A model generated the notes under the pieces. That model was not told the DNA's origin, made no database searches, and saw nothing but the letters and a program-made list of their open reading frames with translations. From NCBI RefSeq assembly GCF_900091495.1, contig NZ_LT607413.1, positions 1,240,001-1,304,000 on the forward strand: 64,000 bases of DNA. The letters run 5' to 3'. The position numbers and the translations under genes are program-made. The DNA is from Micromonospora echinospora (GTDB lineage Bacteria; Actinomycetota; Actinomycetes; Mycobacteriales; Micromonosporaceae). Positions 55,368 to 56,843 of the stretch are shown piece by piece (within the stretch, counting starts at the first letter, position 1; every line of letters begins with the position of its first letter).

Positions 55368-56564
55368 TCACCCCAGCGGTGGACGGGCGGCAGCGGTGAC
55401 CAGGTCGAGGGCGGCGGAGCCGGGCAGGGGGTCGAGCCGTCGGCCGTCGCGCTGACGCAGGCTCACCCGGCCCTCGGCGGCCTCCCGGGGGCCGACCACG
55501 GCCACGTACGGGATCCGGCGGCGGGCGGCGTCCCGGATGCGCGCGCCGAGGGAACCGGCGGCGTCCACCTCGGCCCGCAACCCGGCGTGGCGGCAGTCCC
55601 GGGCGAACCCCGCCGCCGGGTCGGCCTGCCGGTCGTCCAGCGGGAGCACCACCACCTGCACCGGGGCGTACCAGGCCGGGAACGCGCCGGCGTGCTCCTC
55701 GATCAGGTACGCGAAGAGGCGTTCCATGCTGCCGACCAGGCTCCGGTGCACCATCACCGGTCGACGTCGCTTCCCGCCCCCGTCGACGTACGACAGGTCG
55801 AACCGCTCCGGTTTGTCGAAGTCGAGCTGCACGGTGGAGAGGGTGAACTCCCGCCCCGCCGCGTCCCGCACCTGGATGTCGATCTTCGGGCCGTAGAAGG
55901 CGGCCTCGCCGGGGGCCTCGGTGTGCTCGATCCCGACCAGGGCGGCCCGCAGCAGTTCCTCGGCCCGACGCCACTGCTCCTCCTCGCCGACGTACTTCTC
56001 CCCCGGCCCGCGCAGCGACAGCCGGAACCCGGCGGCCCGTACGCCGAGCGCGGCGTGCGCCGCCCGGATCAGCCCGAGGATCTCCGCGACCTCCGCGCCG
56101 ACCTGTTCCGGGGCGCAGAAGTTGTGCGCGTCGTTGAGCGAGATGGCGCGTACCCGGGAGAGCCCGCCGAGCACCCCCGAACGCTCCGCCCGGTACATGC
56201 CGCCCAGTTCGGCGACGCGCAGCGGCAGCTCCCGATAGGAGCGGCCCCGGGACTGGTAGACCAGCGCGTGGTGCGGGCAGAGCGCCGGCCGGAGGACGAA
56301 CTCGTCCGCACCCAGTCGCATCGGCGGAAACATGTCGTCGGCGAAGTAGCCGAGGTGACCGGAGCGGTCGAAGAGGTCCCGCCGGCCCAGCGGCGGGGTG
56401 TGGACGTGCTGGTAGCCGGCCCGGCGCTCCACCTCCCGGAGGTACTCCTCGACCGCGTGCCGGGCGGCTGCGCCGGCCGGCAGCCAGAGCGGCAGCCCGG
56501 CGCCGCTGAGCGGGTCGGAGGCAAAGAGGTCCAGGTCACGGCCGAGCCTGCGGTGGTCGTTCAT
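55368..56564 (-). CDS. thrS: Truncated threonyl-tRNA synthetase without editing domain
   Basis: A 398-residue class II synthetase, far shorter than the usual 640-690. It consists of only the catalytic core and the anticodon-binding domain. Zinc ligands fit C96 (LRPALCPHH), H147 (LNDAHNFC) and the His of PVMVHRSLVGSMERL; motif 2 is YRAERSGVLGGLSRVRAI. The TGS and editing domains are absent, so mischarged Ser-tRNA(Thr) could not be cleared in cis. It is probably a second ThrRS used under threonine limitation or against a ThrRS inhibitor. The attenuator-like leader upstream supports the first idea. Confidence 0.9.
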   Translation of the reverse strand: MNDHRRLGRDLDLFASDPLSGAGLPLWLPAGAAARHAVEEYLREVERRAGYQHVHTPPLGRRDLFDRSGHLGYFADDMFPPMRLGADEFVLRPALCPHHALVYQSRGRSYRELPLRVAELGGMYRAERSGVLGGLSRVRAISLNDAHNFCAPEQVGAEVAEILGLIRAAHAALGVRAAGFRLSLRGPGEKYVGEEEQWRRAEELLRAALVGIEHTEAPGEAAFYGPKIDIQVRDAAGREFTLSTVQLDFDKPERFDLSYVDGGGKRRRPVMVHRSLVGSMERLFAYLIEEHAGAFPAWYAPVQVVVLPLDDRQADPAAGFARDCRHAGLRAEVDAAGSLGARIRDAARRRIPYVAVVGPREAAEGRVSLRQRDGRRLDPLPGSAALDLVTAAARPPLG

Positions 56565-56619
56565 CGGGGTCTCCTGGTTCGGGTACGACCCCGGAAGCGA
56601 CCGGTCGGAGCACGGCGAA

Positions 56620-56644
56620 GGCCCCGGGCGGATCGCCCGGGGCC
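56620..56644 (-). terminator. Attenuator hairpin before thrS
   Basis: Perfect 11-base GC arms (56620-56630 and 56634-56644) with a three-base loop lie between the leader-peptide stop and thrS, 55 bases before its ATG. Only two T residues follow on the minus strand. Confidence 0.7.
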
Positions 56645-56660
56645 TCGTCGACGGATCAGG

Positions 56661-56714
56661 TCAGCGCGGCGTGCCGGGGTCACCCGGCGTCGTCGTCACC
56701 ACCGCACTGCGCAT
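56661..56714 (-). CDS. Threonine-rich leader peptide of thrS
   Basis: A 17-residue frame, MRSAVVTTTPGDPGTPR, with three consecutive ACG threonine codons and a fourth near the end. ATG 56714 lies six bases after TACGGT, so the transcript would begin at this peptide. A strong hairpin follows 16 bases after its stop. This is the arrangement of ribosome-mediated attenuation: scarce Thr-tRNA would stall the ribosome on the ACG run and change folding of the downstream RNA. Confidence 0.7.
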   Translation of the reverse strand: MRSAVVTTTPGDPGTPR

Positions 56715-56720
56715 GCCGCG

Positions 56721-56726
56721 ACCGTA
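56721..56726 (-). promoter_or_regulatory. Leaderless -10 box of the thrS leader
   Basis: TACGGT on the minus strand, six bases before the leader-peptide ATG 56714. Confidence 0.6.
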
Positions 56727-56761: not shown

Positions 56762-56843
56762 CCCCGTCGATCAGGGGGTTGTGGTGTGCGGATGGTGACG
56801 ATCGCGGGTTTTGGGTGGTGCCCAAAGTCCATGATCGACGGGG
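56762..56843. repeat. 82-bp element with 12-bp terminal inverted repeats
   Basis: CCCCGTCGATCA at 56762-56773 and TGATCGACGGGG at 56832-56843 are perfect inverted ends of a non-coding segment with a relatively T/G-rich interior (GCGGGTTTTGGGTGGTGCCC). It looks like a miniature dispersed element. Confidence 0.6.

Follow-up and report, generated by a model that had tools for sequence, protein, structure and literature searches.

Is the short reading frame with three consecutive threonine codons in front of a threonyl-tRNA synthetase (ThrRS) gene of Micromonospora echinospora a regulatory leader, and if so, what does it regulate and how? The locus lies in a window of 64,000 nucleotides (contig NZ_LT607413.1, positions 1,240,001 to 1,304,000), by which we mean the whole stretch of DNA that was analysed and to which all coordinates refer. 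An earlier note, made from the letters alone, had described TACGGT, six bases, an 18-codon frame with ACG-ACG-ACG, an 11-bp GC hairpin and then thrS; all of these are present, on the minus strand, and the leader with its hairpins probably switches on a spare ThrRS when charged tRNA-Thr is short. The features of the leader frame and its promoter are:

56721..56726, minus strand: -10 element TACGGT, six bases (CGCGGC) ahead of the leader ATG, a leaderless promoter arrangement
56661..56714, minus strand: leader ORF MRSAVVTTTPGDPGTPR-TGA, 17 amino acids, 18 codons with the TGA; the ATG at 56714 is the presumed transcription start
56688..56696, minus strand: regulatory threonine codons ACG-ACG-ACG; the run parses in 184 of 186 loci of the family and, at class level, in 27 of the 28 that were fetched by protein

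Ahead of the leader, in the gap, is a dispersed 22-mer repeat, GTGCCCAAAGTCCATGATCGAC (56818-56839): allowing no more than three mismatches, the genome has 14 copies, this one included, of which 12 share a strand and 2 are on the opposite one (control, 0).

The gene downstream

55368..56564, minus strand: thrS2, a 398-amino-acid threonyl-tRNA synthetase core with anticodon-binding domain, in which the editing domain was not found
56571..56575, minus strand: Shine-Dalgarno-like AGGAG of thrS2, by inspection

The leader belongs to a second, editing-less ThrRS paralog and not to the housekeeping thrS. The thrS2 protein matches only PF00587 and PF03129 (the class II core and the anticodon-binding domain), and scores 425.3 bits against TIGR00418, above the cut-off of 383.65. 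We read it as the editing-less paralog because the same genome encodes a full-length ThrRS (G000:C1:7598064) with the editing domain PF07973, 46% identical to thrS2 over the core. The name thrS in the earlier note is thus correct as far as it goes, in that the gene encodes a ThrRS, but it is the shortened paralog and not the housekeeping copy. Control of the housekeeping gene by a leader of this kind was rejected for this genome, as none was seen in the 260 nt that precede the open frame of that gene (L002), and among the candidates scored in the genome the leader model has a single strong match, the one at thrS2.

Aligned to 1nyq, a solved bacterial ThrRS that we take to be the Staphylococcus aureus enzyme, the shortened ThrRS starts at residue 241 of that chain. 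It retains a cysteine and two histidines, presumably the zinc ligands, as well as the FYGPK stretch, whose glycine we take to be the one changed in ObaO. By analogy with an auxiliary TrpRS, it is possible that thrS2 encodes an inhibitor-resistant ThrRS; in ObaO, as described in the relevant part of PMC11252418, the change to serine of a glycine beside the reactive tyrosine confers obafluorin resistance, and because the shortened enzyme retains FYGPK, inhibitor resistance is not indicated by that residue. At the protein level thrS2 places the window near M. echinospora (97%). Of 101 genomes of the genus, 82 match the shortened ThrRS at E <= 1e-115 and one more has a contig-end fragment; in the family, 94 of 150 genomes match, representing 29 of 44 genera.

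Conservation of the leader and its threonine codons

The earlier note had held that its reading would fall if the threonine codons were not conserved in orthologous leaders; the run, its frame, the start, the stop and the hairpins are kept across the Micromonosporaceae and beyond. Every one of the first 106 orthologous loci (88 distinct) has an upstream ORF with consecutive threonine codons, and with 80 further loci, all fetched by protein, 184 of 186 family loci pass a parse for an in-frame ATG or GTG, the threonine run and a stop. The two failures are L144, which has two threonine codons, and L170, which lies at a contig start. The parse demands an in-frame start, ACN, AAC or CCG at codon 1 and threonine at codons 2 and 3, with ACG or ACT at codon 3 and other third bases free. 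It would also have taken loci lacking TANNNT, and this element precedes the start in 184 of the 184 parsed loci, at a spacing of 6 nt in 133, 7 nt in 50 and 8 nt in one. This backs the leaderless start that had been proposed, as does the published RNA-seq of the Streptomyces lividans homolog in the section of PMC8079986 concerned. None of 3680 mononucleotide-shuffled 300-nt upstream sequences passes the parse when TANNNT is demanded, whereas all 184 real ones do; with 184 of 186 protein-fetched loci parsing, a leader ORF with threonine run and hairpin before thrS is real, and far beyond chance.

At the level of the class, the leader is present in 27 of 28 loci fetched by protein alone (L229-L256, from 61 protein places), using a parse that also required TANNNT and a P1-like pattern (P1 is described below); the one failure among 57 loci, L253, has its gene starting at base 58 of the contig. 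Loci L200-L228 were fetched with the RNA model, and the leader is therefore present in them by construction.

The 240 parsed loci reduce to 192 distinct leaders, in which threonine codon counts are conditional on the parse, so that conservation is to be read from the pass rate. Codon 1 of the run is ACG in 125, ACC in 59, AAC in six, ACT in one and CCG in one, and is thus not a threonine codon in seven; codon 2 is ACG in 189, ACC in two and ACT in one, and codon 3 is ACG in all 192. The six leaders with AAC (asparagine), which leave two threonine codons, are from Salinispora (L067, L074, L080, L086, L090 and L104), and the CCG (proline) is in one distinct leader. Residues ahead of the run are variable, and the frames end in TGA (186), TAA (3) or TAG (3). 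Compared with its relatives, L058 (Micromonospora trifolii, about 1364-1445) lacks two bases past P1; the ORF end is thereby shifted, and a TAA closes the frame shortly afterwards. All 191 candidates of the form TANNNT-N6/7-[AG]TG are in frame with the run, the parse having demanded an in-frame start, and ATGs 9-75 nt upstream are distributed 228 : 26 : 6 by frame, the first being the frame of the run.

The choice of codon is also skewed. ACG makes up 506 of the 576 codons of the run. By comparison, it accounts for 17% of the 2546 threonine codons that 142 coding-like ORFs of Micromonospora-type loci contain, and for only 3% (12 of 379) of those of thrS2. The bias is partly structural, as codon 3 contributes its final bases to the P1 stem; codons 1 and 2 are outside the P1 pairing.

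Two hairpins and a mini-helix

56673..56688, minus strand: hairpin P1 (1:2), GCCGGG-TGAC-CCCGGC, inside the leader ORF, with its 5' arm beginning at the last base of the third threonine codon
56618..56646, minus strand: terminator-like hairpin T (3:4), GGCCCCGGGCG-ATC-CGCCCGGGGCC, 11 bp, or 13 with one G-T pair, followed by CGCCGTG
56650..56662, minus strand: mini-helix joining GAC, which overlaps the stop codon, to a GUC of the spacer, over-represented in homologs

P1, a hairpin that the earlier note had not mentioned, lies at the end of the threonine run and overlaps its third codon, reading CGCCGGG/CCCGGCG in most leaders. A stem of 5-8 bp is present in 192 of 192 leaders (7 bp in 124, 6 bp in 66, and 5 bp and 8 bp in one each), counting the best of several registers and with class loci already parsed for a P1-like pattern. 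Double-sided changes occur at three pair positions, and a permutation test on 64 thinned leaders gives z 9.0. The arms of T give z 24.7 in the same test. In the first alignment, A1, nine of ten consensus pairs of T have at least one double change; A1 is partly out of register in both P1 and T, and the permutation test is the better of the two. The loops of both hairpins vary in length and sequence, and the ATG of thrS2, at 56564, is 53 nt past T.

There is no U-tract after T. Base T is enriched at the first four positions after the hairpin (84, 59, 50 and 64 of 192 leaders, for comparison with 11% in leader ORFs) but does not form a run. Hairpins after other genes, picked by the model (L260, L261, L267 and L269) and presumed to be terminators, also end in CTTCGTCGT-like tails and not in U-runs, and the absence of a U-tract therefore does not exclude termination at T. 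The thought that the ACG run might pair with the CGTCGT that follows T was set aside, because unrelated hairpins bear the same tail.

As to the mini-helix, of the 186 leaders that end in TGA, 140 have GTC in their spacer, against 50.6 expected from shuffles and 63 for the control CTG; as the GAC and GUC are almost invariant, these counts come without covariation evidence.

A possible antiterminator

56636..56678, minus strand: possible antiterminator 2:3, CCCGG (56678-56674) with CCGGG (56640-56636), from nascent-RNA folds

The earlier note had supposed that a stalled ribosome prevents the hairpin from forming, which would need an antiterminator. In folds of the window leader in which threonine codon 1 or 2 occupies the A site, a CCCGG/CCGGG pairing of this kind can form (-19.8 or -19.5 kcal/mol) as long as transcription has not yet reached the 3' arm of T. 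Moving codon 3 into the A site abolishes it, only T forms when the ribosome is placed on the stop codon, and in every case T prevails as soon as its 3' arm exists. On average the 3' arm of P1 finds a better partner in the T 5' arm of its own leader than in unrelated stems (mean percentile 0.13, with 62 of 192 within 5%), and in the window the 2:3 energy is equalled by 30% of unrelated stems. Where the claim falls short is in covariation, which gives no support for 2:3 in either the 64 thinned leaders (z 1.3) or the 41 genera (z 0.6), so that a proof of the antiterminator by this route failed. Because T (median -29.8 kcal/mol) is more stable than the best fold of the stretch that runs from the P1 3' arm to the T 5' arm (median -22.1), any antitermination would need to be under kinetic control.

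A covarying helix of the T apex with a segment near the thrS2 ribosome-binding site

56596..56602, minus strand: candidate segment S5, GGTCGCT, which pairs with the T apex GGCGATC; an alternative is GGGTCGT at 56591-56585

The earlier account also lacked a covarying helix on the 3' side of the hairpin. By the apex of T we mean the loop and the two or three pairs next to it. It is complementary to S5, a segment located a median of 16 nt after T (about 10-27 nt) and ahead of the Shine-Dalgarno sequence. Examples of apex and S5 are GGGTTCATC/GATGAGCCC (L164), GGGCATGTGC/GCGTGTGCCC (L172), GGGCGACC/GGTCGCCC (L128) and GGGCGAGTG/CACTCGCCC (L201). When each leader's own pair is compared with swapped pairs, the 64 thinned leaders give z 9.2, with a reversed-loop control of 0.6-0.7; slightly shorter apexes give 8.9 and the loop bases alone 3.9 in the same set. 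With one leader per genus (41 genera) z is 7.7, and since the reversed-apex control itself reaches 3.3 here, part of this signal may come from composition and near-palindromic apexes. Unrelated hairpins of the window give no signal of this type (z -0.9 for 104 hairpins and -0.6 for 212).

At least 6 bp can form in 41 of 64 leaders and 27 of 41 genera, and compared with shuffled downstream sequence p <= 0.05 is reached in 93 of 192 leaders; swapping among all 192 gives a mean p of 0.34, a weakness that we attribute to sequences shared by related leaders. A Shine-Dalgarno-like match was found in 43 of 64 leaders, and in these S5 ends a median of 12 nt before it. The window's own pairing is 7 bp with G-U pairs and two possible partners, and the claim is thus made at family level and does not extend to this copy. 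The helix and the top of T are mutually exclusive, and because S5 is transcribed after T it points to messages that have read through, and so to an effect on translation or stability.

Distribution and specificity

A covariance model, R1, was built from 51 of 65 representative leaders. In the 7.8-Mb home genome, where scoring covered 150 of 32406 first-look candidates, it gives 78.5 bits at this locus and 29.2 for the next best match; across whole-genome searches 11 to 150 first-look candidates were scored per genome, and absences are correspondingly soft. R1 matches occur in 71 of 394 class genomes and protein matches in 61. Fifty-seven of the 61 shortened thrS genes in these genomes have an R1 match no more than 400 nt upstream and two more leaders were seen by eye, making 59; the last two show no leader in the available 57 and 106 nt to the contig end, the latter being L275 of genome G388.

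Among 74 R1 matches in the class search, 17 do not adjoin a listed shortened thrS. Inspection of these revealed one sub-threshold shortened thrS (L257), three full-length thrS genes, one leader at a contig end (L276) and 12 others. We rejected the idea that these 12 (35.2-43.9 bits) represent the element scattered before other genes, as they have neither a ThrRS match nor a TANNNT-led short ORF with a threonine pair; some hold chance ACGACG strings, with three in a row in L266 and L272. L276 is an intact threonine leader with no thrS visible 3' of it, possibly interrupted by an inserted element. The three full-length genes (L258, L259 and L262) are in three genomes of two other genera, which have no second ThrRS beyond weak partial matches. 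Because the leader there precedes the sole clear, full-length thrS, switch and paralog are separable in evolution. Seven of 296 phylum genomes have R1 matches at 1e-6, of which two are outside the class, both before a shortened thrS.

How the element might work

We favor, with good though not full confidence, ribosome-mediated attenuation of an auxiliary threonyl-tRNA synthetase gene by a leader that is leaderless in its start and specific for threonine. Transcription would start at or near the leader ATG. With ample Thr-tRNA the ribosome would pass the ACG run to the stop codon and cover segment 2, T (3:4) would form, and transcription would end. With charged tRNA-Thr in short supply, whether for want of threonine or because the main ThrRS is inhibited, the ribosome would halt on the ACG codons and cover the 5' arm of P1, leaving segment 2 free to pair with the 5' arm of T, so that polymerase would enter thrS2 and the spare synthetase would then restore charging. 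To supply a spare synthetase when charging fails is the likely use of the element.

Three of the classical marks of an attenuator can be read directly from the DNA: a leader ORF with a run of cognate codons, a 1:2 hairpin and a GC-rich 3:4 hairpin. These, with their conservation and covariation and their link to ThrRS genes, are observed; termination at T, the 2:3 antiterminator, the threonine response and the physiological role are what we infer from them. The fourth mark, a U-tract, is absent, and there are other points against this explanation: covariation gives 2:3 no support, T is more stable than the competing fold, codon 1 is not threonine in seven leaders, and both L144 and genome G388 depart from the pattern. 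Moreover, the helix of the T apex with S5 has no place in the classical model of attenuation. We note too that codon changes in a similar-looking leader, that of Streptomyces coelicolor ilvB, were without effect (cited in the part of PMC1262725 concerned).

The apex helix, near the thrS2 ribosome-binding site, hints at a second, possibly translational, layer, which may be the main rival of attenuation or a supplement to it. Control could be mainly or additionally translational if, in threonine-replete cells, a pseudoknot of the T apex with S5 forms near that site and stalling, by disrupting T, opens the site; T need not then be a strong terminator. The apex covariation (the z values of 9.2, 8.9 and 7.7), which is not seen for unrelated window hairpins, speaks for this, together with the closeness of S5 to Shine-Dalgarno-like matches and the missing U-tract, and a leader peptide with a pseudoknot is known for actinobacterial leuA in the LEU element (PMC1262725, in the section concerned). 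However, T resembles the presumed terminators with CTTCGTCGT-like tails, the reversed-apex control is itself raised in the one-per-genus test, pairs of 6 bp or more occur in just two thirds or so of leaders and genera, and the window copy is ambiguous between two partners. On balance we regard translational control as possible but unlikely.

That the controlled gene is a ThrRS could also suggest a T-box, or a ThrRS that binds a tRNA-like operator, in place of ribosome stalling. T-box and autogenous controls are known for thrS in Firmicutes and Escherichia coli, the latter with an anticodon-like loop to which ThrRS binds. The conserved start, stop, frame and threonine codons would have no role in such a mechanism, and no T-box or other cis-regulatory Rfam family matches at E <= 1 in 14 kb around the leader, the only match, away from the leader, being a weak one to a microRNA family; a T-box or other Rfam element was rejected for want of a match at this threshold, and we consider control through tRNA or ThrRS binding very improbable. 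Least credible of all is a conserved DNA operator, or an unrelated small gene with threonine codons, followed by an ordinary terminator, since although the ACGACGCCGG stretch is nearly invariant at the DNA level, codon 1 changes synonymously, the leaders range from 15 to 26 codons with the start in frame, P1, T and S5 covary as RNA, and the association is with ThrRS genes.

Returning to attenuation, a more speculative extension, to which we attach only modest weight, would join the two layers in an ancient pan-actinobacterial 'THR element', in which a rare-codon leader senses the charging of Thr-tRNA, a T-apex pseudoknot silences leaky readthrough, and a spare ThrRS is made only when charging fails, the element being attached to the sole full-length thrS where there is no spare. 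If true, it would yield a spare ThrRS under, for example, ThrRS-inhibiting antibiotics. Tying a widespread, proofreading-free second ThrRS to a probable charging-sensitive switch makes the role of that enzyme testable: it should be produced chiefly on failure of the main ThrRS or exhaustion of threonine. The system is also compact and conserved, and would allow stalling on the leader peptide to be dissected together with a hairpin that lacks a U-tract and a possible pseudoknot.

Comparison with known systems

The earlier note had thought a leaderless threonine leader peptide unusual, but the element is of a known kind and its Streptomyces form is already in print: a homologous thrL was listed for Streptomyces lividans TK24 in 2021 (Droste et al., PMC8079986). 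There, a leaderless peptide, MKRVRPFLETTPGFVPAR, with two threonines precedes a thrS and is followed by one hairpin with no U-rich tail, and by eye 13 of its 18 residues equal those of the L223 leader. It is described for one strain in a table row and a paragraph, with no comparative or paralog analysis in the section concerned, and the window locus differs in having three threonine codons in the run and in belonging to another family. Table 4 of the same paper gives a metL peptide containing TTTPG, which is the core motif of the threonine leader. Besides thrL, no actinobacterial thrS leader peptide was recognised in the titles and opening lines of abstracts of the open-licence literature. As far as searched, the conservation of the element throughout the actinobacteria, the 1:2 hairpin within the ORF, the association with a paralog that lacks the editing domain, the rare ACG codons and the covarying helix of the T apex with S5 are new.

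The nearest functional parallel is an auxiliary trpS gene of Streptomyces, for which Vecchione and Sello reportedly described a ribosome-mediated attenuator in 2010; it too is an auxiliary synthetase gene under a leader peptide, but the amino acid is tryptophan and, as reviewed elsewhere, the gene is tied to indolmycin resistance. Leader-peptide attenuators with antiterminator and terminator also precede trpS and leuS of Streptomyces in the sections of Seliverstov et al. (2005; PMC1262725) that deal with them, which differ from T in that poly-U follows the trp and leuS terminators. The same source gives no conserved RNA structure upstream of actinobacterial threonine operons in its treatment of these. 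Its LEU element of leuA, likewise a leader peptide with a pseudoknot in Actinobacteria, has leucine codons and another architecture, and its codon run is said there to pair with the Shine-Dalgarno box. A LEU element has a leucine codon run upstream of leuA, and here we find threonine codons and thrS.

Mycobacteria have leaderless polycysteine leader ORFs. These share with the threonine leader the leaderless start of a regulatory ORF and differ in their amino acid, cysteine; conserved terminator hairpins were not found for mycobacterial cys leaders in the part of PMC1262725 concerned. Finally, the paralog itself has a counterpart in Anabaena, where of two enzymes, T1 and T2, the second is a ThrRS with impaired editing that is used under stress (PMC4787780). 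The portions of that paper on T1 and T2 mention no leader peptide, and T2 differs from the shortened ThrRS described here in that it keeps its N2 editing domain and serves under low zinc.
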